From NCBI RefSeq assembly GCF_900101015.1, contig NZ_FNFZ01000003.1:1-64000 (forward strand): a DNA stretch of 64,000 nucleotides. Reading direction: 5' to 3'. The position numbers and the translations under genes were made by a program. This DNA is from Sarcina sp. DSM 11001. Its GTDB lineage: Bacteria; Bacillota; Clostridia; Lachnospirales; Lachnospiraceae. Of this stretch, positions 21,625 to 47,154 are shown piece after piece; position 1 is the first letter of the stretch; every line of letters begins with the position of its first letter. The notes below the pieces were generated by a model that worked only from the letters and a program-made list of their open reading frames with translations, was not told the origin of the DNA and did no database searches.

Positions 21625-21636
21625 GAGTTTATGCTA

Positions 21637-21651: not shown

Positions 21652-21715
21652 CAAAACAATATATTTCCTGAATTCTGATAGGTCCTGATTCATCATCACT
21701 TCTTCTTGAACGAAC

Positions 21716-23357: not shown

Positions 23358-23385
23358 ACTTTCCTCCGTGTTGCAATAACATGCA

Positions 23386-23904: not shown

Positions 23905-24048
23905 TAGTGATAATTCCTCTCAAAATCAGCTCATTTGAATCTTTCAAGATATCAGATAGATGTATATACTCTATAACAAATCGCAAGGGTCATTCACACC
24001 GTCTTCAATTAACATATACCTAAGCCATGATCGATCCTCGTTCAAAAC

Positions 24049-24288: not shown

Positions 24289-24586
24289 TATGTCATTCCT
24301 TTATATGATATCCCAACTTCTATTATCAAAGTTTTGTCTTCCTGCTTTGATTTTCTCTGCATCCTCTGGAATGACCCGGATTCTGCTTGTCATTTCAGTA
24401 CTGTCAATTTATCATTCCCTACATAAAGTATGCACCTGAGGAATAAATCAATCCTATAGGCACTTCTATATCCGGTGCCCAACACTAAGGAATGTATCAA
24501 GAGTATCACAGAGGTGATAGCACATCAAGAACTGAGACAATAAGGATAGATAGATTCTTCTATTCATAATCATATTTTTTACTCCG
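24289..24586. other. Gap between relaxase and small acidic gene
   Basis: Contains only a 30-codon open frame on the minus strand beginning MTSRIRVIPEDAEK (ending near 24301), in frame with the next gene but separated by TAA. No RNA or repeat is recognised. Confidence 0.35.
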
Positions 24587-25942: not shown

Positions 25943-26064
25943 TCGGTCCTCTCCTTCTCCCGATACGGCTTCATAAACACTCGTCTTCAGGGGCATTTTT
26001 TTAAGAATTTGTTACCCGTGAGTAATCCATGCAAATATCTCATCAAGGATGAATCCATCTGCTC

Positions 26065-26426
26065 AGCTCCGCAGGGGGTTTTGTTACTTTTGTCAAAAGT
26101 AACGCAAAAGCACTTTCGACAGCAGAGCCATCAAAAGTGCTTTGCGCTCTCCGAGGGTATGGCCTCGCTTCGCTTCGGCAGTTGACCGCTTCCGCTTTCT
26201 TGAGGGGCAAAAGGGGCAATTTCGATGAGCATACCCGTCCTTTTTTGTTTTCTCAGCCGGTCGCATACGGATACAGTTTGGAACAGCGCTGCTCTCTCAG
26301 TCGGCTCTCCTCAGACAGTACTGGTAAAAAAAGCTTCCGTATGCCCTTCTTTTTTGCCCCTTTTGCCCCTTTCTCTTTCTTTCCAGTGAAGCTTATGCCT
26401 GTCCCATCATATCTGCGATAATTTTC
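26065..26426. other. Conserved origin-like block (oriT/ori candidate), element I
   Basis: This non-coding block between primase and relaxase is nearly identical to 36675-37037 in element II. It starts with a perfect 10+1+10 palindrome (26083-26103: GTTACTTTTG, T, CAAAAGTAAC). A long hairpin follows with GCAAAAGCACTTT and AAAGTGCTTTGC arms (26104-26145). GGGGCAAAAGGGGCAA (about 26204-26219) is answered by its inverted copy near 26353-26368. Position directly upstream of a MobV gene and downstream of a replication gene fits an origin of transfer or replication. Confidence 0.6.
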
Positions 26427-28256: not shown

Positions 28257-28377
28257 GTTCCGTCCCCTCCTCTCTTCATAGTGTTACATGTGAAGATGGC
28301 AGGAAACAGACGAAGAAATCCATTGAACCGGCATTCTATCTTTGATATGATTAAGCTGTGTTTGAACCACATTTGCT

Positions 28378-28419
28378 GACTGCCTGCCGAATGCGCCAAC
28401 ATCCGGATACCAGGCGGTC
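28378..28419. other. 42-bp nested hairpin, element I
   Basis: GACTGCCTG pairs with CAGGCGGTC (one wobble), enclosing CCGAATG / CATCCGG around a CGCCAA loop. The same structure, also 42 bp, lies at 38990-39031 in element II within otherwise diverged flanks. It lies between the MobC-like gene and the primase gene. Confidence 0.65.
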
Positions 28420-28432
28420 ATTTTTTTCATTC

Positions 28433-28759
28433 TCAATGTTCTTCCTCCTTCATTCCTTCCATCACAGATAAGATCATTTTTAATTCTGCAAGCAATTCGG
28501 GATCCATGTCCGATACACTCTCCAGACGACACAGCTGTTCCGCAACTGCCCGCAGTTCTTCTCTCAGTCCCCAAAAGACCTTCGGGTTCCCCTGCACCAC
28601 GACTTCCATGTCCTCCAGCCTCCGCGTGATATATTCCTGCTTGGTAAGTCCGCTGATCCGCACTGCTGCATTGATCCGTTCATTTTCCTCCGGAGATACA
28701 CGGAACGCGACTGTGATGTTTCTCCATCTTCCGTTTCTATCCAGATTCTTTTCTGACAT
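28433..28759 (-). CDS. MobC-like / ribbon-helix-helix mobilisation protein, element I
   Basis: A 108-residue protein with a start chosen at the ATG after GAGGAGGG. The N-terminal RWRNITVAFRVSPEENERINAAV and SGLTKQEYITRRL segments are the strand-helix-helix pattern of MobC relaxosome proteins. The remainder is helical and acidic and ends EGMKEEEH. It probably binds near oriT and assists the MobV relaxase. It follows the integrase and precedes the nested hairpin and primase gene. Confidence 0.75.
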   Translation of the reverse strand: MSEKNLDRNGRWRNITVAFRVSPEENERINAAVRISGLTKQEYITRRLEDMEVVVQGNPKVFWGLREELRAVAEQLCRLESVSDMDPELLAELKMILSVMEGMKEEEH

Positions 28760-28859
28760 TGGTCCACCCTCCTCTTTTAATCGCATCTTTTATATCATTT
28801 TATATGCTGCCATTGAATCCATATTCATTATCCCGATATTGATTGTTCCGCCATGTGTA

Positions 28860-29960
28860 TTAATCTTCGCTCTCATCTCCCGGTTTCTCGCCCCCGAATT
28901 CATTGTCAAGAAAATCAGCCATCGCGTCCTGCTTGTTGGGGAATAAATGGGCATACCGCAGTGTGATCTTCTCCGCACTGTGGCCCACCCGCTTGCCGAT
29001 CTCAAAGGCAGTAAATCCATTGTTGATCAGGAGGGATACATGGGAATGCCGCAGATCATGTATACGGATCCTTTTTACGCCTGCCGCTTTACTACCTGAT
29101 CTCATCGCCTTGGTAAGCCCGTACTTCGTCAGGGGGAACAGCCTGACATCCGGTTCGGCACAATAGATCATCTTTAGATAGTCCTGGATTTCATCACTGA
29201 GAAAAGCAGGGATCCGAATCGTCCTGTTGCCGTATCTGGTCTTTGTTGTCTGGATCAGTTCCTTTCCATCCAGTTTCTGATAATTCTTATTGATACGAAG
29301 AGTCTTCCGTTCAAAATCAAAGTCAGAAGGTGTCAGAGCCAGAAGCTCACCTTCGCGGATCCCACACCAGTACAGAACCTCAAATGCATAGTAATATTCA
29401 GGCCGTTTCATCATTTCATCCGCAAATTTCTGATACTCATCCCTCGTCCAGAAGAGCATCTCCTTACTCTCCTCTTCCCCGATGCTGCCTGCACGTCTGG
29501 CCGGATTGAGCGGAAGCTCATAATATCGGATCGCATGGTTGAACATTGCACTCAGCTGCGCATGAATTGCTTTCTGATACGTCGGGGAAATCGGATTTCC
29601 TTTCGTGTCTTTCATCCTGATAATCTCGTTCTGCCAATTCACAACATCTCTGGTATTGATCTCCGACAGCTTCTTTTTTCCAAGAAACGGCAGGATCTTT
29701 GTACGGATGATATTCTCCTTTGTTTTCCAGGTCGTAAGCTTGACTCTGGGCTTAAGATCTTCCTCGTAAAGGGCATAGAAGCTTTCCAGAGTCATATTTA
29801 CATCCGCCCTCTTCTGCAGCAGGAACTGTTTTTCCCATTCCTGCGCGTCCCGACGTGTCGCAAAGCCTCTTTTGCATTTCTGCTTATAGTTTCCCTGCCA
29901 GTCGGTATAGCGTACCATGACATACCATGTTCCATTTTTCTCATTTTTATGCACTGACAT
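28860..29960 (-). CDS. int: Tyrosine recombinase (integrase), element I
   Basis: A 366-residue integrase that would insert and excise the element at the guaA 3' end. Regions in order: an AP2-like arm-binding N-terminus (GTWYVMVRYTDWQGNYKQKCKRGF), a SAM-like core-binding domain, and the catalytic domain. Catalytic residues are visible in LYWCGIREGELLAL (Arg), HDLRHSHVS (His-x-x-Arg) and GHSAEKITLRYAHLF (His and the Tyr nucleophile). The ATG with GGAGAG at 29960 is preferred over one 15 codons earlier. It overlaps xis by 14 bases. Confidence 0.92.
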   Translation of the reverse strand: MSVHKNEKNGTWYVMVRYTDWQGNYKQKCKRGFATRRDAQEWEKQFLLQKRADVNMTLESFYALYEEDLKPRVKLTTWKTKENIIRTKILPFLGKKKLSEINTRDVVNWQNEIIRMKDTKGNPISPTYQKAIHAQLSAMFNHAIRYYELPLNPARRAGSIGEEESKEMLFWTRDEYQKFADEMMKRPEYYYAFEVLYWCGIREGELLALTPSDFDFERKTLRINKNYQKLDGKELIQTTKTRYGNRTIRIPAFLSDEIQDYLKMIYCAEPDVRLFPLTKYGLTKAMRSGSKAAGVKRIRIHDLRHSHVSLLINNGFTAFEIGKRVGHSAEKITLRYAHLFPNKQDAMADFLDNEFGGEKPGDESED

Positions 29961-30156
29961 GATCGTTCTCTCCTTTCTCTTCTTTTGCTCCATAGATATG
30001 ATCATGAAAGTATTTACGATCCACTCTCCCCCGGATTGTAATGCACCCTAGTTCCTTCAATTCCTGATTCAACTTCTGGATCAGTTTGTAGGCATAGGAT
30101 TTCGATACTCCCAGCTCAGCCGCCACCTGCTCTGCATTCAAAAAGATTTCTTTCAT
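29947..30156 (-). CDS. xis: Excisionase-like small HTH protein, element I
   Basis: A 69-residue protein immediately upstream of the integrase and overlapping it. EQVAAELGVSKSYAYKLIQKLNQEL is a MerR/excisionase-type winged helix, followed by RVDRKYFHDHIYG, a basic hairpin. It is likely to direct excision and perhaps repress int. Confidence 0.75.
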   Translation of the reverse strand: MKEIFLNAEQVAAELGVSKSYAYKLIQKLNQELKELGCITIRGRVDRKYFHDHIYGAKEEKGENDHVSA

Positions 30157-30369
30157 AGCTTTCCTCCTTTTATTTTTCTATTCTAATCGGATTAGATATT
30201 TTAATTATATGTGGTCTTTTTCCGAATGTCAACATTTCTATTCTGTATGAGTTTATTATTACGTTTCTTCCTTATTTGGTTTAGTTTACTTGATTTTCAT
30301 TCCTTTCTCTGCTATGATGAACTAACAAAACGAACGTAAAAAAGGATCAGGGAAATGGAGGATCAATAC

Positions 30370-30972
30370 ATGGCACTTGGTGAACGCCTTAATTTTTTTC
30401 GTCGCAAATGTAATCTCACAATGAATGCTCTTGGCCGTATGCTGGGTTTTGACCCAAAATCCGCAGATGTGCGGATCTCCCAGTATGAGAAGGATGCCAA
30501 AATGCCAAAAGAGGAGCTGATCCACTCTATGGCCGATGTACTGGGCATTTCTCCCATGGCCTTAAAACTTCCCAACATCGATTCTTACGACGCTTTGATG
30601 CACACTCTTTTTGCCCTTGAGGACATCTACGGACTCACAGTCAGCGAAGAAGACGGTAAAGTATCCCTTTATCTGAATCCGGAAGTCTCGAAACCCGGTG
30701 GAACTCTTTCCGCATACTTTCTCTCCTGGGCTAAACAGAAAGACAAACTGATGAACGGAGAGATCTCGCTGGATCAGTACGATGACTGGCGCTACAACTT
30801 CCCCAAAGACGATGATTCCGTGATCCGGGCAAAAGCCATTTCTCCCCAACTCTCCGATGATCTGCTCCAGGGACTTGCAAGCGGCGAACTGACGATCCAG
30901 GAAGCTCCCAAAAAGCGAAAAACCAGAAAAAATTTTGAGAGAAAAGGAATGCCAGGGCAGAGCGAAGAATAG
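30370..30972 (+). CDS. Cro/CI-type regulator, element I
   Basis: A 200-residue protein divergent from xis-int. The start at 30370 has GGAGG eight bases upstream, better than an ATG 15 bases earlier. Residues about 1-60 form a helix-turn-helix (GERLNFFRRKCNLTMNALGR, then SADVRISQYEKDAKMPKEEL). A conserved helical section follows (LMHTLFALEDIYGL). Its counterpart in element II has the same position and architecture but a diverged sequence. It probably represses or switches the integration and mobilisation genes. Confidence 0.75.
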   Translation: MALGERLNFFRRKCNLTMNALGRMLGFDPKSADVRISQYEKDAKMPKEELIHSMADVLGISPMALKLPNIDSYDALMHTLFALEDIYGLTVSEEDGKVSLYLNPEVSKPGGTLSAYFLSWAKQKDKLMNGEISLDQYDDWRYNFPKDDDSVIRAKAISPQLSDDLLQGLASGELTIQEAPKKRKTRKNFERKGMPGQSEE

Positions 30973-31015
30973 TACTTGATCCGCTTCTCCTTACAGCCGA
31001 ATAGCATCACGCAAA

Positions 31016-31067
31016 AAAAGCAGGCTCCCGCCGGACTGTTTCCAGTTCGGTGAGATCCTGCTTTTTA
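31016..31067 (+). terminator. Terminator of the element I regulator
   Basis: AAAAAGCAGG and CCTGCTTTTT close a long imperfect hairpin (further pairs ACTG/CAGT at the tip) about 45 bases past the regulator's stop codon. Confidence 0.75.
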
Positions 31068-31134
31068 CTTCTCCGGGAATATGCCTGCAAGCTGCAAGCC
31101 GCGTATTCGCTCAGAATAATATCAGAATTTCAAC

Positions 31135-31155
31135 TGTTATCATTTTGTTATCAAA
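31135..31155. promoter_or_regulatory. Integrase arm-type sites, element I proximal end
   Basis: Two copies of TGTTATCA lie about 60-75 bases inside the attachment core at 31213, matching the three at 20413-20447 of the same element and unlike the sites of element II. Confidence 0.6.
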
Positions 31156-31212
31156 TCGTATCTTCCAAAGCCTGGGAGCCGCATAAACACTGGCTCTCTG
31201 GAGAGCACTTTA

Positions 31213-31224
31213 TTATTCGTACTC
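31213..31224. other. Attachment site core between elements I and II
   Basis: The 12-base core TTATTCGTACTC is shared with 20299 and 41853. It is the proximal end of element I and the distal end of element II. Confidence 0.85.
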
Positions 31225-31327
31225 GACTATGTTGTTTAATTGCTTTAGCATATATAGTAATGTTTATTATATACTTTAACTTATTTTAATCTTTTTCTCT
31301 TTCCTTCTTCTCGCTCTTCGGATTTTT

Positions 31328-31348
31328 AGTATCAAAATAGTATCAAAG
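31328..31348. promoter_or_regulatory. Integrase arm-type sites, element II distal end
   Basis: Two copies of AGTATCAAA about 100 bases from the core. The same word occurs twice at the guaA end (41776-41796). Confidence 0.6.
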
Positions 31349-31361
31349 GCTAGCCTAAGTC

Positions 31362-32132
31362 TCACCTCTGTTTCAATTTGTGAATTAATACTTCTAATTC
31401 TCTATACATTGCTCTACTATTAATAACTATTCCAAGATTCAGATAATCATTTTTTTCCCTAACCATAGTTGCTGAAATAATTCCAACAAATAACAATCTA
31501 TTGCCAATTGTAATTCCGTCTGTAGTCGGATATGATCCTTGATTGAAAATAAAAACTGGACTCCCACTTGAACCAGGGAATACCCCCGCATCTATTAAAA
31601 AAGTCTCTTCTCCTCGAAAAGAATTCCATATAGGTGTTGCTGTGATACCTTTCCGAACAATCGACAACTTATTCTTCTCGTCATATATACTACTAGGATA
31701 CCCTATGAAGGTTATATTTTCTATAGCAGCTAAATTTTGTTCTTGTTCAATAGACGGAATCATGTTTTGATCTACACTTCTAAAAAAAATATCCACTCCC
31801 GCGCTCTGAAAATTCATAAGTGTTGATGCCAACGGAATAGCAATGACATCTAACTCTCCCAGTTTATTTTCACTAATAATGGACCTATCAAACTGAACGC
31901 GAACAGTCTTATTTGTTGGTTTCCCATGCTCTCCTATATGCAATTCGACAAATCCGGCAAGTGCATCTTCTAGTACGTGATAACTAGTAATAAGAAGAGG
32001 AATGGATTTGTTTTCACCCTCGTCTACAGAAAAAATGAAACCTGTCCCCGCAGATACCGTGTTATCTTTTCTTTGGGCAAAAATAGGCACAGTTGTGTAC
32101 AACAATTGTGTGCTAATGTCTTTAATATTCAT
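31362..32132 (-). CDS. Trypsin-like serine protease in the element II cargo operon
   Basis: A 256-residue protein of the chymotrypsin/trypsin fold without a signal peptide, so probably cytoplasmic. Catalytic residues are recognisable: His in LLITSYHVLED (about residue 52), Asp in GELDVIAIPL (about 96) and Ser in the PGSSGSPVF segment (about 192). No PDZ domain is present, unlike DegP/HtrA. Its ATG overlaps the stop codon of the upstream membrane-protein gene (ATGA), so the two are made together. Position behind a restriction-modification pair suggests a defence role, for example cleaving or activating the membrane partner, but this is inference. Confidence 0.8.
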   Translation of the reverse strand: MNIKDISTQLLYTTVPIFAQRKDNTVSAGTGFIFSVDEGENKSIPLLITSYHVLEDALAGFVELHIGEHGKPTNKTVRVQFDRSIISENKLGELDVIAIPLASTLMNFQSAGVDIFFRSVDQNMIPSIEQEQNLAAIENITFIGYPSSIYDEKNKLSIVRKGITATPIWNSFRGEETFLIDAGVFPGSSGSPVFIFNQGSYPTTDGITIGNRLLFVGIISATMVREKNDYLNLGIVINSRAMYRELEVLIHKLKQR

Positions 32133-32596
32133 TCTATCTTCTCACTCCCCTCAACATATTTTTCTAAATAATTCTCGATTTTTTCAGCAAGTTGCCTTGC
32201 ATCATCAATCTCTTGCCTTCTACAAAAGAAGTATATAACTCCACACGCAAGTCCTAAACATGGACAAATGTTGTATAATATAACGCTCAGGGGACTTAAC
32301 TCGTATTTCACTTTCGAGATTAGAGCACTTATACACGCTCCGATTAATAGCGAAGAAATACTAAGAAACAATTCCGCAAATGAAAACTTGTTTTGTTTAG
32401 CTTTATTGCATAAGTCTGATATTCTCTGCATATCCGAAGCACTGATTACAGATAATTCCTCAGCTTCAGGAACATGTACATTGAAAGTTCGACTGTATTG
32501 TAACTCCGTACTTTTATTGCTGATAACATTTACACTAGGCATTTCTTTCGTTTCGGACGTTGCAACATCCAAAATTTTATCTAAATCATTCTCCAC
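32129..32596 (-). CDS. Two-helix membrane protein partner of the protease
   Basis: A 155-residue protein with a GTG start. The first 75 residues are soluble and polar, ending in a helical segment (MQRISDLCNKAKQNKFSF). Two hydrophobic helices follow (about 80-98 and 109-129), then a charged coiled tail (RRQEIDDARQLAEKIENYLEKY). I recognise no family. It starts 14 bases after the restriction endonuclease stop and overlaps the protease by four bases. Its architecture would suit a membrane-acting effector or an anchor for the protease. Confidence 0.6.
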   Translation of the reverse strand: MENDLDKILDVATSETKEMPSVNVISNKSTELQYSRTFNVHVPEAEELSVISASDMQRISDLCNKAKQNKFSFAELFLSISSLLIGACISALISKVKYELSPLSVILYNICPCLGLACGVIYFFCRRQEIDDARQLAEKIENYLEKYVEGSEKIE

Positions 32597-32610
32597 GAAT
32601 CTTTGTCCTC

Positions 32611-33528
32611 TTATCTTGGTCCCAAAAACTTGTCCCCATTCAAATGAATCATGTGATCCGGCATCTCAGCAAGCCACACCTCAGTTTCCCATGCAAGCTT
32701 CTCTGCAAATTTCTTGTAAGTCTGAAAATCAAGAAAAGCGGTCACAAATATCTTTCCGGCGTGGACATTCTGAGTCATCTCGGTGATTTCAATTATTCGC
32801 TTTGGATCCATCGGTCCTACTGAAGTCACGGATTCAACAAAGTAAATCCAATCCTTATCCTCCCGATATAGAACTACATCGGGCATCTTATCGTGTAACG
32901 TAATCTCAAATCCGAGCTGAGCCAGCTTATCGATATTCTTAACAAGATCCTTTTCGATGGTATCTCCCACATAAAGGCACTCAGATCCAGGTGCAAACCG
33001 AGGTGCAAATTCTTCTATAATTGCCTTTTGTAGAGCATTATGCTTTCCAGGAGAAAACTGGAAATCCTCCCCGTTAATCTTTACAGGCATCATTGTCATT
33101 TTCTTCTTAGACGCATATTTATCTACCAAGCGAGTATGGTACGACAAAAAGCGCTGGAGCCGCTCTGTTTCTCTATCAGTCCCTAAAGAGCGCAACATCC
33201 CAAGAGTTTCTTCCGTGATTCGATAACGGTAATTAGGGCTATTTGTTGCTTTTCCATTATCCTCAATCAATGCAGCATTACGAAAATGATGCATTGCCTG
33301 CTTACGAAATGTTTCTCTGGTATTTTCAGCATAAGCCATTCCGTAATACTCGTTAGAAAACACAATGATATCATGAATGCGAATCCACTCATTAGTTGCT
33401 TTTTTCCAGTCTGATTTAGCCGTTATACCAGCCATCGCTAGTAGACTCAGGCAACAAATATCGGATTGCTGCGCCTTTGGCATTCCTACGTCTGCAAGAA
33501 ACTGACGAGCCTCATCCATCTTACCCAT
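32611..33528 (-). CDS. PstI/BsuBI-family type II restriction endonuclease
   Basis: A 305-residue endonuclease. The C-terminal half carries the family's catalytic stretch: MPDVVLYREDKDWIYFVES with the following VTSVGPMDPKRI. This includes the PD..(D/E)-like acidic residues and matches the BsuBI/PstI C-terminal domain, which cuts CTGCAG. The N-terminal half is a helical DNA-binding domain. AAAGGAGG supports the start, which overlaps the methyltransferase 3' end by eight bases. Recognition of CTGCAG is inferred from family membership. Confidence 0.85.
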   Translation of the reverse strand: MGKMDEARQFLADVGMPKAQQSDICCLSLLAMAGITAKSDWKKATNEWIRIHDIIVFSNEYYGMAYAENTRETFRKQAMHHFRNAALIEDNGKATNSPNYRYRITEETLGMLRSLGTDRETERLQRFLSYHTRLVDKYASKKKMTMMPVKINGEDFQFSPGKHNALQKAIIEEFAPRFAPGSECLYVGDTIEKDLVKNIDKLAQLGFEITLHDKMPDVVLYREDKDWIYFVESVTSVGPMDPKRIIEITEMTQNVHAGKIFVTAFLDFQTYKKFAEKLAWETEVWLAEMPDHMIHLNGDKFLGPR

Positions 33529-35017
33529 ACGCCACCTCCTTTAATATCCTATCGCAATTATCGGTGGAAAGATCATTAGAATCTATTACTTTTTCTCCGA
33601 TTCTGGCAATAGTGGCTGCCGGAGGCACCGGTATGCTGTTTATTTCGGTGCTGTTTACCTGCGTGCTTCCGTTCAGTATTCTGTAATACATGTCAAATAA
33701 TGTTGAATTCAGGAGGGCGTATACCCCATAAGTGGTAGATAAGTCCATCTCGCTCCCATCTGTTTTATCAACAAAATTGATTTTGTTCTGAGTGCCAATA
33801 TATTCATATTCTTTAAAGTCTTCTGGAAGGTAAACGCCACACTGTAACCGACGTCGTTCTTCTTTAGCAGTAAATCGTTTGCAGAAAACATAATTCTTAT
33901 TGCGCTGGATCAGACCTGGCTTTTCATCTATAATCCAGTCAAATTCCTTTCCTGAAGGCTGGTGATTAACTCTTCCATTACGAATATGTTGACTATAAAA
34001 GAGAGGAAGAATATGATCTCCGGGTTCTTTTCGGAGGTCATCCCATTGACGGAAATCAACAACAATCCCTGTCTTCATACGCATTCCTTCATCAGGAAGT
34101 GTTTTCTGATAGGTATTAATTCTTTGAATTATATCAATGTCCTCTTTACTGGTCGGGAGATAAACATACAAATCTCTTCCCGAAACAACAGAGGAATAGG
34201 GGACCTTCAACTCGGAGATCTCGTTGAAATCACTATTGCTTTGGCTGGATGTAATCCTTACTTCATCAGGAACAATCTGCGTCTTCTTCACTTTGACGAT
34301 CATTGTTTCCTGAAGCACTTCCTCTGAACTAAAGACTTTATCTCTGCTCACAAACAGATGTATCTGCAATAGTTTACCTTCTCCCAAGAAGTATTGCCTG
34401 AATGCCTTAAAGTAAGCCCCTGATGTCCAGCTTCTGGGAATGATATACACCATCTCAGCATTGTCTTTTAAATTAAATAAAGACATCGATGCGAACAGAA
34501 AGTACAGGTTTGGTGCCCCATGCACAACCTTCGGCATTGCAAGCGCTGCTGGGTTATCACGCATGACTCTCAGATAAGGAGGATTGCCTATGATAAGGTC
34601 ATACTTTGTCTGCTGTTCACTAGCGAAAAACGTTTCGTTAAAATCATCCTGTTGAGATAAAATATAGTCCTGTTCCCTTATCTCATAACTGAACCGATCT
34701 CCAGCTTTTGATAAAAGGTATACCATATTATTCTTGAGAACCGGCAAAACATCCCCATCCGTTTCATAGCAGGTCAGATGAATGGAACGTTTTTCATCCG
34801 CCTCAAGCAAATGCTCCACTACAGCGGCTGAAAGAATACCTGTTCCTGTTCCTGGATCCAGTATATTGATTTCTAAAGGTAGCCCCTCCAGTTGGAACAT
34901 AGTAGCCATAAACTCAGCTGTCTCTTTAGAAGTGAAAAACTGACCTTTTTTCTTTCGCTTACTCTTCGGCATTTGTTCTAAGAACTTATTGGTTTCATTG
35001 ATTATATATTCCAGCAT
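33521..35017 (-). CDS. N6-adenine DNA methyltransferase (PstI/BsuBI-type modification enzyme)
   Basis: A 498-residue methyltransferase. The SAM-binding motif LDPGTGTGILSAAV lies near residues 53-66 and the catalytic NPPY in DLIIGNPPYLRV near 145. The N-terminal GQFFTSKETAEFMA segment is common in gamma-class adenine methylases. The C-terminal 200 residues would hold target recognition. It is the first gene of a four-gene minus-strand unit (methylase, nuclease, membrane protein, protease). It would protect the host from the adjacent nuclease. Confidence 0.9.
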   Translation of the reverse strand: MLEYIINETNKFLEQMPKSKRKKKGQFFTSKETAEFMATMFQLEGLPLEINILDPGTGTGILSAAVVEHLLEADEKRSIHLTCYETDGDVLPVLKNNMVYLLSKAGDRFSYEIREQDYILSQQDDFNETFFASEQQTKYDLIIGNPPYLRVMRDNPAALAMPKVVHGAPNLYFLFASMSLFNLKDNAEMVYIIPRSWTSGAYFKAFRQYFLGEGKLLQIHLFVSRDKVFSSEEVLQETMIVKVKKTQIVPDEVRITSSQSNSDFNEISELKVPYSSVVSGRDLYVYLPTSKEDIDIIQRINTYQKTLPDEGMRMKTGIVVDFRQWDDLRKEPGDHILPLFYSQHIRNGRVNHQPSGKEFDWIIDEKPGLIQRNKNYVFCKRFTAKEERRRLQCGVYLPEDFKEYEYIGTQNKINFVDKTDGSEMDLSTTYGVYALLNSTLFDMYYRILNGSTQVNSTEINSIPVPPAATIARIGEKVIDSNDLSTDNCDRILKEVAYG

Positions 35018-35179
35018 TTGACTTTATTCCTATGTAATCCATATTCTGTATCAAAATATCTGTATTCGCAAAAGATAGTATAGCATGTCACGAAACCCAC
35101 ATCAAACAAAACCAATTGGTCTGATCCTTAATGGTTTCCTTCTTCTACCGCTTTCCTCCCCATTATGAGATTACTTTCT

Positions 35180-36535
35180 TTACAGCGACCACTCTGCCCT
35201 GCCTCTCTGCCTCTTCCTCTGATTTCTCTCCCACTCTTCTCGCCTGCTCTGTTCATCGGCGATCCTGTTCACCTGTTCCTCCCCAACGGCATGCTCCACC
35301 AACTCCAGTCTATGGGATCGCTCATCCAGAATATTGTTTCTTTCCTCCAGCTTACTGACTCGGTTCCGGAGATGATCTATTTTCTGATCACTCTTTTTCA
35401 GACTCTGTTTTAGGCGGTCGTTTGCCTCCAGGGCATGGATCAGCTGCAAAGTGAGATTCTTGATTACGTTCTTGAGTTTATTGACGAGCGGTAGTGCTTT
35501 TTTTTCACGGTATGTCCCTGCTCCCATCAGGAAATCCGGCTCCGGAAGCTGCCACTTCTTCGCTTCATCGTATTCATAAACATTTCTTTCAAATGACTGG
35601 ATGTACGCCTTTAAGCTATTGGCCTTCTTCTGGCTTTCTTCTTTTACTGCCTCTGCTTCTTCAGCCGCCTTCTTTGCCGTAGCCGCGACCTGAAGGGCAT
35701 TTTCTTTCTCTACCTTCGCCTGAGCGGTTTCCCTGTGCACCTCGGTTAGTTCCTGATTCACCTGTGAAAGCTCCATATGCAGTTGTGCAGAGACCTTCAG
35801 CTGCGCTTCCGTAGTCCGTTCAATATTTTCTTTTTGTCTTTCAAGCAGTTCAACTTCTTTTATCCGTTCTTTCTTCTTGTAGTCCAGTACAGACAGGTGT
35901 TCCTCGTGGGTGCCCTTTTTCTCCCATTCAATGCCGTGTGCCAGCATGATCTCTGCCAGACGCTCCTTCTCTGCATTTGCCCACTGATCCCACTCCGTAT
36001 CGTTGCGGGTGCCGCCCTTAAAGCCAAGGGCTTCCAGTGCCTTTTTCAGAGAAACTCTGGTATCAAGGCCCCTTTTGCTGCCTGTTGTGAAAGGAACAAA
36101 ATCAATGTGCAAATGCGGTGTTGCTTCATCCATATGCAGGTGAGCGGAGAAAACACGGAGTGTCGGATTCCTTGTCTGAAAGCCCTGCATGTACTCATCC
36201 AACAGCCTGGCGGCATAGGCCCCGTCATCAGTTGCGGCGGCGCAGGTATCTCTGTTTCCAATCTGGATGACGAGTTCATGAAAAGGCTTCTCCTGCTTTC
36301 CGGAGCAGATCTTCTCATAATAATTCTCAATCTTCCTGTCTGACCGCTTCTGCTTCGCATTGTATCTGGCAAGGGCATCATCGAATAATTCGTGATAGAC
36401 ATCTTTGATATTCTCATTACAGTATTCTATGTTCAGGTGACTCCGGGATGGATCTACATTCTCTGCATAGAAGACCCGGCTGTTGTGCTTCAGCGATCCC
36501 TTTCCCACCATCACACTGATTGTGTTTTTGTGCAT
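35180..36535 (-). CDS. MobV-family relaxase, element II
   Basis: A 451-residue relaxase, about nine tenths identical to the element I copy. The Pre/Mob domain has HLHMDEATPHLHIDF, followed by a long coiled coil and basic tail. The ATG follows a purine-rich site before MHKNTISVMVGKGS. Differences from the other copy cluster in the coiled coil. It ends 162 bases before the methyltransferase gene that starts the cargo. Confidence 0.9.
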   Translation of the reverse strand: MHKNTISVMVGKGSLKHNSRVFYAENVDPSRSHLNIEYCNENIKDVYHELFDDALARYNAKQKRSDRKIENYYEKICSGKQEKPFHELVIQIGNRDTCAAATDDGAYAARLLDEYMQGFQTRNPTLRVFSAHLHMDEATPHLHIDFVPFTTGSKRGLDTRVSLKKALEALGFKGGTRNDTEWDQWANAEKERLAEIMLAHGIEWEKKGTHEEHLSVLDYKKKERIKEVELLERQKENIERTTEAQLKVSAQLHMELSQVNQELTEVHRETAQAKVEKENALQVAATAKKAAEEAEAVKEESQKKANSLKAYIQSFERNVYEYDEAKKWQLPEPDFLMGAGTYREKKALPLVNKLKNVIKNLTLQLIHALEANDRLKQSLKKSDQKIDHLRNRVSKLEERNNILDERSHRLELVEHAVGEEQVNRIADEQSRREEWERNQRKRQRGRAEWSL

Positions 36536-36674
36536 TCGGTCCTCTCTTTCGTCCCGATGATTCCGATATGGCTATATGAATAATCGTTCTCATCGGCTTT
36601 CTCCCTTCAAAGGCATTGCTCACACCTGTATCTGCATGGAGTCAAATATCCCGTCTTTGATGGATCAGTCTGTT

Positions 36675-37037
36675 CAGCCCCGCAGGGGGTTTTGTTACTT
36701 TTGTCAAAAGTAACGCAAAAGCACTTTCGACAGCAGAGCCATCAAAAGTGCTTTGCGCTCTCCGAGGGTATGCCTCGCTTCGCTTCGGCAGTTGACCGCT
36801 TCCGCTTTTCTCAAGGGGCAAAAGGGGCAATTTCGATGAGCATACCCGCCTTTTTTTGATTTCTCAGCCGGGCAGATGCTGATACAGTTTGGAACAGCGC
36901 TGCTCTATCCGTCGGCTCTCCTCATACAGTACCGATGCAAAAAAAACTTCCGTATGCCCTTCATTTTTGCCCCTTTTGCCCCTTCCTTTTCTTTTCCGTG
37001 AAGCGCAGCCTGCTCACATCATATTCGCTATGATTTC
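36675..37037. other. Conserved origin-like block (oriT/ori candidate), element II
   Basis: Near-identical counterpart of 26065-26426. It has the 10+1+10 palindrome at 36694-36714, the long hairpin at 36715-36756, and the inverted GGGGCAAAAGGGGCAA pair at about 36818 and 36967. Its conservation, in contrast to the diverged integration module, argues for a function shared with the relaxase and primase. Confidence 0.6.
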
Positions 37038-38867
37038 TTAGACCGCTTCAAATGGGATTACTGCCCCTTTCCGGACCGGTTCGAATCCGTCCAATTTCAT
37101 CTGCCGGCTGATCTGCTTCGGTTCATCTGCCTCCACTTCACTCTTCAAAACAACATCCTTGTATTTAAACACCCCCTGATATTTACTTGTGAAATACCCT
37201 TTCCTCTCCATGTCAGCAAAGAAGTTGGTCTTCTTTACAGCAGTCCTGTCGTTATCTCTGCAGTAGTCCTCATAGAGCTGATACATGCGGCTCCTGTCGA
37301 TGCGGCTCCCTTCTTTTCTGCAGATCATTTCATTCAGGAAAGCAAACACACTGTCCGCAGCGATCCTGGCCTTCCGGACACTCGCGATACTGTTTGCGCT
37401 TTCTTCTATCTGGCCATTTTGACAAAGCTCTTCCAGCCCCTGGACGGCCCTGTAAACGGCATATTCTCTCTCGCTTCGAATCTTATCCTTCAGATGTATA
37501 TCCTTCTCAGCCGCCGGAATCACATGATCCATCTCCAGAATGAGCAGCCTGCGGTAAAAAGCATCTGACTTGTCTTCAACATTCTTAGGCACGCTGTTGC
37601 ATGAAAACAGCAGCTTTGCATGGCTTCGAAACGTGGAGGGGTCCTTTCCTTTCTTCTCAAAAAGGAGGACATCCTCTCCGACAGCCTTCTTCACCACATC
37701 TGTCTTGTCTATGATACCGACCGGAATATCTCCACATGCATTTAAGAGTTTCCCGAACAGATTTGTGGCATAGAATCGTTTATTGAGATCCTGCAATGAA
37801 ACACTGCAACAGTTTCTGATGCCGACAAGTTCCTGAATCAGATCGATCAGTACCGATTTGCCTGTTCCTCCATTGCCTGTCAGGATCAGCATCTTCTGCT
37901 GGCTGGTATCTGTACACATGCAATACCCTGCGTACTGCCAGAACATCTTCTGATCCTCCCTGTCGGGAAGGGATTCCGCCAGATAGGACCGAGTCACCTT
38001 CCCGGCACTATTATCTGCCACGACTCCTTCCTTTTTTGCCGGATCAAAATCAAAGGAAATCTGATTAAAACACAGATACTTCGGGTCATGTGGTATCATC
38101 ATCTTTGCAGCCGGATCATAAAACCCGTTTCGGAAGTTGACCCAGTGGCCAGGCAGATTGTACACATCGCCAAAAACCCGCTGGACTTCCGGCATGCTGA
38201 TCAGAAGCTCATAGATCCGGTTGATCGTACCGCTGCGCATGAATTTCCTGTATAAGCAGTCTCTTATTTTCTCTTTCAGCAGATTTCCATTTTTGTCCTG
38301 TAGATATACGCCGTTGACGTATACATAGGGATTGCCTTCGAGAACAATAAACGGGACTCCCTTCAGCAGGTGCTCCACAATGGCAATATCCAGTGGGCTC
38401 GTAGCCTCTCCGTCTTTGTTGACCTGATGAAAGCAGTTTTTGTCTGCCTCTTCATTGGGAGGCTTCTCATAGGAATCAATGAAGCTGCGGAGCTTACCCT
38501 GAATCTCCTTGCGGTATCCGAGCTTCTTATAGCACTCCTGATCTTTGAAGAGCATCCAGCCTTCGCGGAAAAGCAGGTGCAGTTCTCTGAAGCATTCAAT
38601 CAGCCTCTCATTCGATTTCTTTGTCTGACAGGCAGGGACATACATATAATCTGTCATGCATGTCCCTTTTAATTCCAGTCCTGCCAGATACGAACAGAAG
38701 CTGTCCAGGGTAAACAGATTGGTTTTTTCTTCTTCCAGAGCCACAGTCTGAAATCCTGCATCTGCAATACTGAGTGCAAGGTCACTGTTATCTACAATGA
38801 AAATATATTTCTGATCGACTGTTTCCGGTTCAGTCCTCATGTACTGTTCGAACAGCCTTCTGAACAT
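37038..38867 (-). CDS. P4-type primase/helicase (SF3), element II
   Basis: A 609-residue replication protein equal in length to the element I copy. It has a toprim-like N-terminal part (DNSDLALSIADAGFQTVAL), a D5-like middle, an SF3 helicase with Walker A GNGGTGKSVL and a C-terminal DNA-binding region. Residues beyond about 130 are nearly identical to element I, while the first 130 share only the framework. This is consistent with cassette exchange between the two elements. Confidence 0.85.
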   Translation of the reverse strand: MFRRLFEQYMRTEPETVDQKYIFIVDNSDLALSIADAGFQTVALEEEKTNLFTLDSFCSYLAGLELKGTCMTDYMYVPACQTKKSNERLIECFRELHLLFREGWMLFKDQECYKKLGYRKEIQGKLRSFIDSYEKPPNEEADKNCFHQVNKDGEATSPLDIAIVEHLLKGVPFIVLEGNPYVYVNGVYLQDKNGNLLKEKIRDCLYRKFMRSGTINRIYELLISMPEVQRVFGDVYNLPGHWVNFRNGFYDPAAKMMIPHDPKYLCFNQISFDFDPAKKEGVVADNSAGKVTRSYLAESLPDREDQKMFWQYAGYCMCTDTSQQKMLILTGNGGTGKSVLIDLIQELVGIRNCCSVSLQDLNKRFYATNLFGKLLNACGDIPVGIIDKTDVVKKAVGEDVLLFEKKGKDPSTFRSHAKLLFSCNSVPKNVEDKSDAFYRRLLILEMDHVIPAAEKDIHLKDKIRSEREYAVYRAVQGLEELCQNGQIEESANSIASVRKARIAADSVFAFLNEMICRKEGSRIDRSRMYQLYEDYCRDNDRTAVKKTNFFADMERKGYFTSKYQGVFKYKDVVLKSEVEADEPKQISRQMKLDGFEPVRKGAVIPFEAV

Positions 38868-38989
38868 GTCATAATTCCTCCTCCCTTCGTAACATCATTA
38901 CGGCGAAGAAATCGGGAACCGGAAAAAATCCATTGAAGCCAAAAAGTCATTCTGATATGATAATTGTGTGTATTAATATCACAACGATT

Positions 38990-39031
38990 GACTGCCTGCC
39001 GGATGCGCCAACACCCGGAGTCCAGGCGGTC
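38990..39031. other. 42-bp nested hairpin, element II
   Basis: GACTGCCTG / CAGGCGGTC with an inner CCGGATG / CACCCGG-type stem and the same CGCCAA loop. It is the counterpart of 28378-28419 and at the same place between the MobC-like and primase genes. Confidence 0.65.
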
Positions 39032-39044
39032 ATTTTCTTTTTCA

Positions 39045-39383
39045 TCAAAAGATTTCCTCTTCATCCTTCCCTTTCACCTCATTCAATGTATCCGCCACAA
39101 GCCAGATCGTTTCCACCAGATCCGGATCGATTGTCTCTCCTGCAGTAATCCTGCAGAGCTGTTCCAGGATCTCCTTCATCTGATTTCTGAGTGCCTTATA
39201 TATCCTCGGATTCGCCTGTACCTCGATTCTCCACCCAAGCAGCTGACGGATGATATAGTCCTGCTTAGTAAGCCCCGTCAGGCTGACTTTTGTGTCCAGG
39301 ATACGGTTTTCTTCTTCAGACATCCGGAAAGCTACTGTTTTGTTTCTCCATCTGCCCCGTTCATCCCTCGCCTTCTGTGACAT
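39045..39383 (-). CDS. MobC-like / ribbon-helix-helix mobilisation protein, element II
   Basis: A 112-residue protein. The ATG at 39383 is nine bases from AAGGAGG; one two codons earlier is only three bases away. GRWRNKTVAFRMSEEENRIL and TGLTKQDYIIRQL give the strand-helix-helix pattern, followed by an acidic helical tail. It overlaps the integrase 3' end. It is a clear homologue of the element I protein at 28433-28759 but considerably diverged. Confidence 0.75.
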   Translation of the reverse strand: MSQKARDERGRWRNKTVAFRMSEEENRILDTKVSLTGLTKQDYIIRQLLGWRIEVQANPRIYKALRNQMKEILEQLCRITAGETIDPDLVETIWLVADTLNEVKGKDEEEIF

Positions 39384-40464
39384 CGCCATCTTCCTCCTTT
39401 CTCAGTTCTTCCAGCAGTTTTACCATCTCCGTCTGTTTGGACGGAAACAGATGCGAATACCGGTATGTGATATCAATGCTCTCATGACCGACCCTGTCCG
39501 CAATAGCCTGTGCAGAGACCCCCATATTGATCAGCAGGCTGACATGGCTGTGCCGCAGGTCATGGATCCGGATCCTTTTAACGCCTGCCGCTTTCGACCC
39601 CCGGTCCATTTCATGATGAAGATAGTATTTTGTAACTTCGAAAATCCTGCCGTCCGGCTTGATGCCATAGAGACTGTCAATATAGTCACGCATCTCATCC
39701 ACCAGAAATGACGGCATGCCGACTACGCGTACACTCTTTGGTGTCTTGGGATCCGTGATCACATCCGTTCCGTTCAGACGCTGATAGGACTTGGTGATGG
39801 AAACCGCGCCCTTCTCAAAATCGAAGTCATCAGGCGTCAATGCAAGCAACTCTCCTTCACGGATTCCGCACCAATAGAGCATTTCAAAAGCATAGTAGGA
39901 AACGGGCTTGTCCATCATTTCATCCGCAAACTTCTGATACTCTTCTTTGGTCCAGAAGTCCATTTCTTTCTGCTGGTCAGGTCCAAATCCTCCCGCCTTC
40001 TTGGCCGGGTTCTCCCTGAGATTGTAATAGCGGACCGCATGATTAAAGATTGCACTGAGCTGGCTGTGCACCTTATTCAGATAAGTACGGGAATAGGGCA
40101 TGCCTTTTTCATCCCTGTAATTCAGAAGTTCGTTCTGCCATGCGATAACATCCCTGGCCTCAATATCTGCAATCGGTCTCTCACCGAACCAGGGAAGGAT
40201 CTTTGTGCGGATCACATTTTCCTTCGTGATCCACGTGTTCTTTTTGAGCCTGTCCTTCCTGTCGACACAGTACTGCTCAATAAACACAGAGAACTTCATA
40301 TTCAGATCTGCTGCCTTCTGCATGAGGAACTGACGCTCCCAGGCAAGTGCCTCCTTCTTCGTTGCAAAGTTCCGCTTCATCTTTTTCCTGCGGACACCAT
40401 TACAGTCTTCATAATAGAACGAACAATACCATGTTCCTTTTTTCATATCCTTATACGCGGGCAT
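39361..40464 (-). CDS. int: Tyrosine recombinase (integrase), element II
   Basis: A 367-residue integrase with an AP2-like arm-binding N-terminus (GTWYCSFYYEDCNGVRRKKM), a core-binding domain and a catalytic domain with LYWCGIREGELLAL, HDLRHSHVSLLIN and GHESIDITYRYSHLF. The start MPAYKDMKKG follows AAAGGAGG, 21 codons inside the longest frame. It is homologous to the element I integrase but clearly different, matching the different arm-type repeats of the two elements. Both use the same 12-base core in guaA. Confidence 0.92.
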   Translation of the reverse strand: MPAYKDMKKGTWYCSFYYEDCNGVRRKKMKRNFATKKEALAWERQFLMQKAADLNMKFSVFIEQYCVDRKDRLKKNTWITKENVIRTKILPWFGERPIADIEARDVIAWQNELLNYRDEKGMPYSRTYLNKVHSQLSAIFNHAVRYYNLRENPAKKAGGFGPDQQKEMDFWTKEEYQKFADEMMDKPVSYYAFEMLYWCGIREGELLALTPDDFDFEKGAVSITKSYQRLNGTDVITDPKTPKSVRVVGMPSFLVDEMRDYIDSLYGIKPDGRIFEVTKYYLHHEMDRGSKAAGVKRIRIHDLRHSHVSLLINMGVSAQAIADRVGHESIDITYRYSHLFPSKQTEMVKLLEELRKEEDGDVTEGEG

Positions 40465-40465
40465 C

Positions 40466-40660
40466 TTAATCCTCCTTTCTATCTGCAAGTCCGTAGACCT
40501 GCTCCTGGTAATACTTCCTGCTGACACGGCCTGCCACTGTCGTAAATCCCTTCTTTTTCAGCTCATCATTCCATTTGTGGATCATCTTGTAGGCAAGCTG
40601 CTTCGAAATGCCGAGCTCCTGTGCCAGCTCTTCTGCTCTGATAAATACACTTCCTGCCAT
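40466..40660 (-). CDS. xis: Excisionase-like small HTH protein, element II
   Basis: A 64-residue protein ending one base before the integrase start. AEELAQELGISKQLAYKMIHKWNDEL is an excisionase/MerR-type helix-turn-helix with RVSRKYYQEQVYG as the wing. It is equivalent in place and form to 29947-30156. Confidence 0.75.
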   Translation of the reverse strand: MAGSVFIRAEELAQELGISKQLAYKMIHKWNDELKKKGFTTVAGRVSRKYYQEQVYGLADRKED

Positions 40661-40975
40661 TCCTGTTCCTCCTTTCCTGTATTGCAGTGATCAGTGCTGT
40701 CATCATCAGAATGATTGACTTCTGAATCTGATGTCTTACAGTATACTTTACTATATATGCTAATGTCAACATTTAATTTTACTTTACTCGTTAATTTGAA
40801 ATATATTTCTTTACGTATTTTGATGAAGTTTATATTGCTTACAATAGCTTTCTATGATATATTGAAACTGCTCCATACTTCACTACATTGCTTAAAAACA
40901 ATCCAAATTTGTCCTCCTGTTTGCAAAATGGGCACTGATGGACAATTTCGTATTATCACAAGAGAGGAAATAATC
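40661..40975. promoter_or_regulatory. Divergent control region of element II
   Basis: An AT-rich gap of about 315 bases between xis-int (minus) and the regulator (plus). It must hold both promoters and the regulator's operators. No clear palindrome was picked out by eye. Confidence 0.4.
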
Positions 40976-41491
40976 ATGGCTGCTGGAAAACGTATCCGCT
41001 TTTTCAGAAATCTTCGTGGACTTAAGCAGAAGGAACTGGGAACTGCACTCGGATTCAGTCCCTCTACCGCCGAAGCACGCATTGCACAGTATGAAACCGA
41101 GCTCCGTCTTCCCAGAAAAGATTTGTTGACCAAGATCGCCTCCATACTCGGTGTGAGGACAGAAGCGATCAATGTACCGGACATCGACACCATGATCGGC
41201 TTCATGCATACATTGTTCGCGCTCGAGGACATGTACGGCATCAAAATAGGTGAGATCGACGGAGAAGTCTGCCTGCGTCTGGACCGGACAGACGGCCCCA
41301 CCTTTGCCAGAAATCTCGATCTGTTTCTCCCCTGGCTAAGGCAGATGAAAAAGCTTGAAAAGGGAGAGATTACAAAGGAAGATTATGACTGGTGGCGTTA
41401 CAACTACCCGGAAGGGGAGATCGTCAAACCAACACTGAAGCCCCTGAAATCGTCCGGTAATGCAGACAACTCTTCCTCAAATGAAGAGTGA
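40976..41491 (+). CDS. Cro/CI-type regulator, element II
   Basis: A 171-residue regulator with GAGAGG before the ATG. The N-terminal helix-turn-helix reads GKRIRFFRNLRGLKQKELGTALGF, then AEARIAQYETELRLP. The middle MHTLFALEDMYGIKIGEIDGEV segment matches the element I regulator. The C-terminus is Ser/Asn-rich and shorter. It is divergent from xis-int and probably controls them. Confidence 0.75.
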   Translation: MAAGKRIRFFRNLRGLKQKELGTALGFSPSTAEARIAQYETELRLPRKDLLTKIASILGVRTEAINVPDIDTMIGFMHTLFALEDMYGIKIGEIDGEVCLRLDRTDGPTFARNLDLFLPWLRQMKKLEKGEITKEDYDWWRYNYPEGEIVKPTLKPLKSSGNADNSSSNEE

Positions 41492-41606
41492 CGACCATGC
41501 CCTCTCTGATCAGAGGAACAGCTGTCTTCCCGTACTGTGCCGTACTGACCCAGTACCACAGCCCTTGTTCAGGCAGTGTCTGGGTCTCTGGACTTTTCCA
41601 CAACGC

Positions 41607-41652
41607 AAAAAGCCCTCCGAACAACATTGTCGTTGCTCAGAGGGCATTTTTA
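41607..41652. terminator. Bidirectional terminator at the guaA end of element II
   Basis: GCCCTCCGAACAAC and GTTGCTCAGAGGGC pair with two mismatches, flanked by A and T runs. It resembles the hairpin inside the 150-bp repeats. It can end both the regulator (plus) and guaA read-through (minus). Confidence 0.75.
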
Positions 41653-41775
41653 TGTCTTCTGTTATTAATGAATAATCAGCTATGGGGACCGATTGTGTTG
41701 AAAAGATATCTCTTCTTTACAGTCATCTGTCTGGTTCGATACGATTCGGTATCATTCTTCAAACCTGTAAGGAAT

Positions 41776-41796
41776 AGTATCAAAACAGTATCAGAG
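41776..41796. promoter_or_regulatory. Integrase arm-type sites, element II proximal end
   Basis: AGTATCAAAACAGTATCAG contains two copies of the AGTATCA word seen at 31328-31348. They lie about 60-75 bases inside the guaA core. Confidence 0.6.
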
Positions 41797-41852
41797 CGTC
41801 TCCCCCGTGTCCTGGAGCCCAGTGTTTATGCGGGTCTCCGAGATTTTGCAAA

Positions 41853-41864
41853 TTATTCGTACTC
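41853..41864. other. Attachment site core in the guaA 3' end
   Basis: TTATTCGTACTC is the reverse complement of the last three GuaA codons (Glu-Tyr-Glu) plus TAA, so insertion preserves the gene's end. It matches the cores at 31213 and 20299. Confidence 0.9.
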
Positions 41865-42842
41865 CACCGTTGCCGGGGGCTTGGGGGTGAAGTCATAGAG
41901 GACGCGGTTGATGCCGGGAACCTCTGCGATGATGCGCTGCACCAGGTGGTCGATCAGGTCTGCGGGCAGGTGCTCGACAGTGACTTCCATGACGTCGGTG
42001 GTGTTGATGGCGCGGATGATGCAGGGCCAGTCAAAGGTGCGCTTACCGTCTTTGATGCCGGTGGATTTGAAGTCCGGAACGACGGTGAAATACTGCCATA
42101 CTTTGCCTTCGAGGCCGTTCTTTGCGAACTCCTCGCGGAGAATGGCGTCGGATTCGCGGACAGCTTCGAGGCGGTCGCGGGTGATGGCGCCGGGGCAGCG
42201 GACGCCCAGGCCGGGGCCGGGGAAGGGCTGGCGGTTGACCATGCTCTCGGGCAGGCCAAGGGCTTTGCCGACTTCGCGGACTTCGTCCTTGAAGAGGGTG
42301 AGGACGGGCTCTACCAGTTCAAAGCGGGAGGCAATGTCCTCGGGAAGGCCGCCGACGTTGTGGTGAGCCTTGATGCCGGCTTCGCTCTCAAGGATGTCGG
42401 GCCAGATAGTACCCTGTGCCAGGAAGGAGATGTCATCAAGTTTTCTTGCTTCTTCCGCGAAGACGTCGATGAACTCCTCGCCGATGATGTGGCGTTTCTG
42501 CTCCGGATCAGCGACGCCGGCCAGCTTGTCGAGGAAGCGGTCTGTGGCATCGATATAGATGAGGTTTGCTTTCATCTGATTCTGGAAAACCTCGATGACC
42601 TGCTCGGGTTCACCTTTGCGGAGCAGTCCGTGGTTTACGTGGACGCAGGTAAGCTTATCGCCGATTGCCTTGATCAGGAGGGCAGCGACGACGGAGGAAT
42701 CAACACCGCCGGAAAGAGCCAGAAGAACCTTCTTATCTCCCACCTGCTCTGTGATCTCTTTGATCTGTTCGTCGATAAATGCCTGCGCCAGGGCAGGTGT
42801 CGTGATCCGTTCCATATTCTCCGGGCGTCTTCTTGTCTGCAT
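41853..42842 (-). CDS. guaA: GMP synthase, ATP-pyrophosphatase part only
   Basis: A 329-residue protein equal to the synthetase and dimerisation domains of GuaA, which converts XMP to GMP. The P-loop LALSGGVDSSVVAAL is near residues 41-55. Other typical parts are HVNHGLLRKGE, the QGTIWPDILES lid, NRQPFPGPGLGVRCPG and the C-terminal KPPATVEYE. The usual N-terminal class-I amidotransferase (about 190 residues) is absent and not found nearby, so ammonia or a separate subunit must supply nitrogen. A promoter-like TTGCAG..TATATT lies about 215 bases upstream. The 3' end is the integration site of both mobile elements. Confidence 0.9.
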   Translation of the reverse strand: MQTRRRPENMERITTPALAQAFIDEQIKEITEQVGDKKVLLALSGGVDSSVVAALLIKAIGDKLTCVHVNHGLLRKGEPEQVIEVFQNQMKANLIYIDATDRFLDKLAGVADPEQKRHIIGEEFIDVFAEEARKLDDISFLAQGTIWPDILESEAGIKAHHNVGGLPEDIASRFELVEPVLTLFKDEVREVGKALGLPESMVNRQPFPGPGLGVRCPGAITRDRLEAVRESDAILREEFAKNGLEGKVWQYFTVVPDFKSTGIKDGKRTFDWPCIIRAINTTDVMEVTVEHLPADLIDHLVQRIIAEVPGINRVLYDFTPKPPATVEYE

Positions 42843-47131: not shown

Positions 47132-47154
47132 ATCCTCTTGTCCTCTCCTGTTTT

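Follow-up and report, generated by a model that had tools for sequence, protein, structure and literature searches.

What do a small membrane protein and a serine protease do at the end of a restriction-modification (RM) operon? The question is raised by four genes at positions 31362-35017 of a 64,000-nucleotide stretch of the gut-type bacterium Sarcina sp. DSM 11001 (contig NZ_FNFZ01000003.1 of assembly GCF_900101015.1, positions 1 to 64,000), below called the window. All four genes are intact and lie head to tail on the minus strand: a DNA methyltransferase, M (33521..35017, 498 aa), a restriction endonuclease, R (32611..33528, 305 aa), a membrane protein with two transmembrane segments, 2TM (32129..32596, 155 aa, GTG start; identified from its open reading frame (ORF), hydrophobic segments and structure model), and an HtrA-like serine protease of trypsin fold that lacks a PDZ domain and a signal peptide (31362..32132, 256 aa). 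M and R overlap by 8 bp, 2TM follows R after a gap of 14 bp, and the protease gene overlaps 2TM by 4 bp (ATGA), all three spacings being those given in an earlier note on this DNA. The four genes are two units with the same direction: an ordinary BsuBI/PstI-type RM system, and then a portable cassette of 2TM and protease. The cassette genes are paired, widely spread, moved as a unit, and placed behind three unrelated RM systems.

The first unit is as the earlier note had identified it. R contains the domain BsuBI_PstI_RE (PF06616, 4.2e-60) and its own helix-turn-helix (HTH) domain (PF17728, 2.3e-35), and the adjacent M is an adenine-type methyltransferase (Eco57I/N6_Mtase) by Pfam and PADLOC, which makes it a BsuBI/PstI type II system. 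The same order M-R-2TM-protease is present in a second species of the genus (L031/L140). As this order is kept, and as the 2TM-protease pair recurs in seven named phyla (see below), the grouping is more than a chance neighbourhood. Predicted promoters and terminators in the window (15 vs 11.5 and 5 vs 2.6 in shuffles) are not clearly above the shuffles.

A genome scan with the protease yielded 396 relatives, of which the best 80 were taken; the 14 closest are loci L018-L031. In 13 of these 14, a match to the 2TM profile lies directly upstream of the protease or is fused to it; where the two genes are open frames of their own, the gap is -47 to +5 bp. Among the 5572 ORFs of the loci, these 13 were matched by the profile, as was one in the viral contig L101; the only other match, in L090, is weak (E 0.008) and not adjacent to the protease. 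The profile had no match beside the other 66 loci of the scan. L021, L023 and L101 are independent finds, since they are not in the profile. The 2TM gene of L021 is split over two frames, that of L023 (7662-8732) is fused in frame to a protease without the His-bearing N-terminal part, and in L101 (1-16780) the pair lies inside an inovirus-type viral contig with Zot and DUF4062 genes. In L027, where the profile had no match, reading of the sequence reveals a shortened open frame with both hydrophobic segments directly upstream of the protease. It is a shortened or broken copy, as there are stops in frame upstream of the hydrophobic part.

The protease tree has 116 rows, 15 of them paired (the window, 13 genome loci and L101) and 101 unpaired. 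Loci L004, L006, L009, L011, L023, L063, L090, L099, L102 and L113 were left out, being fragments, broken or duplicate copies, or needlessly omitted. All 15 paired proteases form one group with support 100/100, in a tree whose bootstrap correlation, 0.979, is not fully settled. The 2TM gene is upstream of every one of them, in 14 cases by the profile and in one, the shortened copy, by reading. No such partner was found beside the 101 unpaired rows, six of which have less than 470 bp of upstream sequence, so that a 2TM gene may have been missed there. The named phyla of the paired clade are Bacillota, Nitrospirota, Bacteroidota, Pseudomonadota, Spirochaetota, Planctomycetota and Myxococcota. 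Thus the search for the 155-aa and 256-aa proteins as a linked pair, suggested earlier, gives a recurrent pair, and the view that the two genes are not part of the standard BsuBI/PstI system is borne out. The pair is rare, the membrane protein being present in 2 of 99 relatives (own included), but it is phylogenetically wide. Protein distances of the two partners are strongly correlated overall (12 pairs, r 0.91, reached in 0 of 10,000 permutations).

The two units have also had different recent histories. A block at 31321..32619 (minus strand), comprising 2TM and the protease, differs from the copy in the sister species at 24 positions in 1299 bp and has sharp edges. This 1.3-kb cassette is 98% identical to the sister copy, the adjacent RM genes 91-94% (R 91%, M 94%), and the rest of the mobile element that carries the locus 76-96% in 200-bp steps. 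On the R side, the block reaches about 9 bp into the 3' end of R; on the other side, it extends about 40 bp beyond the protease gene. Identity in the outer flank (31173-31320) is about 73%, 40 of its 148 bp being different. Synonymous differences affect 12 of 411 codons in 2TM and protease vs 131 of 803 in M and R (Fisher p 8e-14). Such low synonymous divergence between sharp edges indicates that 2TM and the protease were exchanged together and separately from M and R. The ratio of nonsynonymous to synonymous divergence (dN/dS) from the sister copy is 0.12 for the protease and 0.68 for 2TM, the latter value coming from 11 changed codons only. The earlier picture of an RM operon extended by the pair should therefore be replaced by that of a distinct cassette, whose movement was independent of M and R. 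The pair as a mere part of this RM system is ruled out by the unequal ages of the halves, by the other RM types found before it, and by loci in which no RM neighbour was seen.

These other loci were compared in 14 distinct contexts (L018-L031, the window and L031 counted once). Neighbours were mostly read by eye, within about 4.5 kb on the upstream side and 3 kb on the downstream side or as far as the contig went; among the contexts in which no defence neighbour was seen, a domain scan covered one neighbour each for L024 and L025 and two for L030. RM genes of three unrelated types stand directly before the pair in 3 of the 14 contexts. The window and L031 have BsuBI/PstI genes, L021 a BpuJI-like nuclease together with Vsr and two cytosine methylases, and L029 a type ISP RM enzyme. 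The pair of L021 resides on another mobilizable element with an integrase, AAA_25 and Mob_Pre. Other defence neighbours are AbiEii (L019) and the YhcG nuclease (L023). No RM or defence neighbour was seen in the nine contexts L018, L020, L022, L024-L028 and L030, where the pair adjoins transposases, unknown or housekeeping genes. Thus the neighbour count called for in the earlier note came out divided: defence genes, RM or other, in the contexts named above, and none seen in these nine. Because of the latter, the pair is not an RM subunit. It is an autonomous module that lands often, but not always, behind RM genes.

One possibility is nevertheless that the protease serves the RM system, by removing the nuclease until a new host has been methylated or by destroying phage anti-restriction proteins. 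Indeed, the protease family occurs behind BsuBI/PstI M-R genes in two forms, with 2TM (window, L031) and alone: in L054 and L091, both from Actinomycetota, a partnerless relative lies 9 bp behind these genes. By reading, the protease of L003/L048 has a helicase/DUF4391-like pair on one side and a type III-like methylase on the other, and in L037 it comes 35 bp after an HsdS gene. However, the nine contexts in which no RM neighbour was seen do not agree with such a service. The BsuBI/PstI nuclease family is scarce: it was found in 2 of 219 genomes, one of them the window's own, and in the other no protease was found in the 1.4 kb behind the nuclease. Plasmid records with the nuclease number 146 and those with the protease 14, with no overlap between 60 listed nuclease records and the 14. 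A service to the RM system thus seems improbable.

The surroundings of the unpaired proteases were compared as well. For 66 unpaired loci, the closest ORF to either side, up to 1.5 kb away, was taken; without incomplete ORFs and those of at least 1500 aa, this near set has 117 ORFs. The best 25 of its 90 Pfam families included BsuBI/PstI R (2), HsdS (2), N6_N4_Mtase (2) and YhcG_C (1), together with many housekeeping families; the PADLOC view was of the best 25 of 243 families. However, a control of 70 far ORFs also held defence genes, namely PDC-S06, a DRT reverse transcriptase, DrmC and mad2. Specific enrichment of the wider protease family next to defence genes was thus not shown, and general clustering may account for some of the RM linkage.

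The position behind the BsuBI/PstI R gene looks like an add-on slot, as it may hold the 2TM-protease pair, a lone long-form protease, or, in the viral contig L148 (3031-5726), GmrSD_N and HEPN_MAE_28990 genes directly after the nuclease. As a separate observation, in another viral contig (L147, 4998-7408) the nuclease is followed after 38 bp by a 486-aa protein without a Pfam match.

The protease of the window matches Trypsin_2 (1.7e-9) and, much more strongly, the PADLOC family PDC-S45 (profile PDLC05022, 8.1e-69, profile positions 11-248 of 293). Its model (predicted local distance difference test, pLDDT, 89.8) is a single trypsin-fold domain of the HtrA/Deg kind, and the chain ends with this domain and one helix. 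The triad His52/Asp95/Ser189 is complete in 115 of 116 aligned relatives, the one exception lacking Asp. None of the 15 proteases of the paired clade has a hydrophobic stretch in its first 45 residues, which fits a cytoplasmic protease; both the full triad and this location had been proposed before. No PDZ domain was matched in the Pfam scan, and the PDB sequence search gave no match at E 0.01. From HtrA/Deg proteases such as DegS and DegQ it differs in having no PDZ domain and no export signal, and identity is 14-24% among the rows listed.

Paired proteases have marks of their own. They share Trp169-Asn170 and have Gly183 six residues before the catalytic serine, where Gly occurs in 7 of 101 other relatives. 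Moreover, a stretch of 17-22 residues in the paired clade is 32-51 residues long in 98 of the 101 others. By analogy with serine-protease pockets, Gly183 suggests a small or aliphatic P1 residue rather than Lys or Arg.

The PDC-S45 family is already a listed defence candidate; the 2TM partner of one of its clades is what is added here. PDC candidates are named by their embedding in immune systems (guilt-by-embedding), and PMC12988326 and PMC10855318 describe them as mostly unvalidated; PDC-S45 is named in PMC12429752 as a prophage-borne candidate. The PADLOC model is a single gene, with which the window protease agrees well (8e-69), whereas the clade described here is set apart by its membrane partner, a shorter loop and signature residues of its own. 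The pair itself was not found described in the literature searched, as far as the available parts of the sources go; it may be mentioned in a preprint on embedding by Payne et al., which PMC13092281 cites.

The 2TM protein was not assigned to any family above the curated cut-off: DUF2157 (1e-4) and VMAP-M14 (0.05) were both below it and were not used. Its two hydrophobic segments are at 76-94 and 103-121 (numbering of a 95%-identical copy). The model has a flexible N-terminal tail, a short helix, a two-helix membrane hairpin and a long C-terminal helix. It is of moderate quality (mean pLDDT 69.6; predicted template modelling score, pTM, 0.45), the first 50 residues being under 60, with block means of 44-57 for residues 1-50 and 79-90 for residues 71-120. 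In 14 proteins, Lys and Arg make up 37 of 210 residues in the 15 positions before the hairpin, 40 of 210 in the 15 after it, and 8 of 78 in the loop. This distribution is a weak hint suggesting that the tail is cytosolic, on the same side as the protease. Only M1 and G86 are invariant in the 14 membrane proteins.

Known two-helix effectors include the SLATT proteins; no SLATT match was obtained among the Pfam matches of 12 2TM members at E<=0.1, although the proteins are very divergent. The metallo-beta-lactamase (MBL) and gasdermin families were likewise missing from these Pfam matches. The PDB sequence search gave chance-level matches only, and single 2TM sequences used as queries (three vs plasmids, one vs phages) found nothing. 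In bacterial gasdermin systems a protease adjoins a membrane-acting partner, and this resembles the pair; however, here the partner is a 155-aa protein modelled as a helical hairpin.

A relative of 2TM was found in a different kind of operon. In 398 genomes of the phylum, the 2TM profile found one clear relative (E 4e-16) besides the window's own protein; four further matches were weak. The clear relative lies between an HSP90-like ATPase and a DGQHR_dnd protein (2e-53), in a Dnd-type operon with a DndD-like ATPase (9e-42; L139 1038-8985, on contig C1 of genome G018). In this genome the protease profile of the paired clade has no match at E<=1e-5. No second case was found among 81 genomes centred on this one. 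The same operon also encodes a 677-aa protein with weak radical-SAM/B12 matches. The four weak genomes were set aside: of the three inspected, two had transporter-like ORFs with many helices and one (G332/L138) had a membrane ORF of four segments, and the fourth (G360/L137) was set aside as one of the four weakest.

What, then, may the cassette do? The closest proven logic is that of the nuclease-protease pairs. In Hachiman and AVAST, trypsin-like proteases cut and thereby activate a partner pro-nuclease (Tuck et al. 2025, PMC12799240); the authors leave room for further classes activated by proteolysis. There, as here, a trypsin-like protease has its partner upstream and has been acquired repeatedly by unrelated defence systems (Hachiman, AVAST, Lamassu, DRT). 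However, their partner is an MBL-fold pro-nuclease (HamM/HamA, Avs1a/b) and their protease is fused to a defence enzyme, whereas here the partner is 2TM and the protease is a standalone protein of 256 aa with one domain. The words membrane, transmembrane and restriction-modification are absent from the main text of PMC12799240. Trypsin-like peptidase domains are also present in CARD-NLR-like LypABC, a lysis-inducing immune-type system, but according to the accessible portion of PMC13236601 they are fused to ATPase or endonuclease domains, and no 2TM partner is seen.

On this analogy, the cassette may be a second, protease-controlled defence tier, in which the pair is silent until a protease cut frees a membrane effector; we hold this reading tentatively, at somewhat less than an even chance. 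The pair would sit silent at the membrane. An infection getting past the RM system would wake the protease, which would cut the membrane protein in its flexible tail; once free, the hairpin would damage or arrest the membrane. As a second line in an RM operon the cassette is comparable with PrrC, a tRNA nuclease that is tied to type I RM and forms an extra killing module inside the RM operon; however, the pair is found behind several types of RM system and also by itself. A more specific proposal, that the standalone protease proteolytically activates the hairpin protein as a fallback behind unrelated restriction systems and that the membrane half is reused in a Dnd-type system, is rather doubtful.

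Several observations weigh against a protease-gated membrane effector. In 391 genomes of the class and 397 of the family, the window's own pair is the only one seen, and the nine contexts in which no defence neighbour was seen fit a defence tier poorly. When four close Clostridia are left out, the correlation of distances becomes weak (8 pairs, r 0.35, reached in 832 of 10,000 permutations). No conserved cleavage site stands out across the 14 membrane proteins, and, in contrast to the proteases of Hachiman and AVAST, neither protein of the window carries a fused sensor. Finally, the protease family lacks a 2TM partner in 101 of 116 tree rows, and since it is mostly unpaired, the protease may itself be the effector. 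The membrane protein would then be its anchor and inhibitor, and the tethered inactive protease, freed by phage-caused membrane stress or by a phage protein, would degrade host or phage proteins. This alternative is possible, though we consider it rather unlikely. A tether-only role is at odds with the 2TM relative in the Dnd-type operon, which has no protease and thus indicates that 2TM is not only a tether for this one. It also sits poorly with 2TM being the faster-changing partner (mean protein distance 0.74 vs 0.51). We infer that the gated membrane effector is the leading reading, with the tethered protease effector close behind.

The genetic setting of the cassette bears on two further explanations. 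Three copies of the 12-bp att core TTATTCGTACTC are present in the window, at 20299, 31213 and 41853 (zero in 100 shuffles), the last copy being the 3' end of guaA (GMP synthase, C-terminal part; 41853..42842, minus strand), the attachment gene. The three cores bound two tandem integrative mobilizable elements, which have a common mobilization and replication backbone (3.9 kb at 87%) and different cargo. The guaA-adjacent element, A, occupies 31213..41864 and carries as cargo the four genes M, R, 2TM and protease. Its other genes on the minus strand encode a tyrosine integrase (39361..40527), a NikA-like mobilization protein (39045..39389), a D5-type primase/helicase-like protein (37038..38867) and a Mob_Pre relaxase (35180..36535); on the plus strand, an HTH-type regulator (40715..41491) was assigned by reading of the sequence. 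The same element is present at the same site in the second species (L140). The cargo of the tandem element (20299-31224) consists of a DUF3368 gene (PIN-like by reading), a 283-aa unknown protein and two 172-aa zinc-ribbon-like proteins. Elsewhere in the window there is a 155-bp repeat, 96% identical (12536-12689 and 15836-15989), and short local direct repeats, 78-88% identical (43249-43397, 45436-45579, 47152-47295, 53431-53622 and 58032-58199).

With mobilizable elements as carriers in two different cases, and an inovirus-type contig in addition, the pair could be a toxin-antitoxin module that keeps the mobile element, the membrane protein being toxic and removed by the protease. The small size of the membrane protein and the tight gene overlap would suit this. 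However, the protease alone is the common form, and several copies of the pair reside beside housekeeping genes, which leaves such a module improbable. Quality control of membrane proteins, with no defence role, would agree with the HtrA-like fold and with the housekeeping neighbours at several loci. However, matches to the A3 profile at E<=1e-20 are sparse and patchy (in 3 of 391 genomes of the class and 5 of 397 of the family, the window's own genome counted), the pair is located on mobile elements and moved as a cassette, and the protease family is listed as a candidate through embedding in immune systems. Quality control is therefore also quite unlikely.

A concrete partner can thus be named for the candidate family PDC-S45, so far modelled as a single gene, and an RM operon has been upgraded by exchange of a cassette behind its nuclease. 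Proteolytic activation is known in bacteria for gasdermins as well as for nucleases, and the cassette offers a two-gene test of it as a general way to build defence modules. If the gated-effector reading is true, the pair would be the membrane counterpart of the nuclease-protease pairs, a fallback that would fire when restriction fails.

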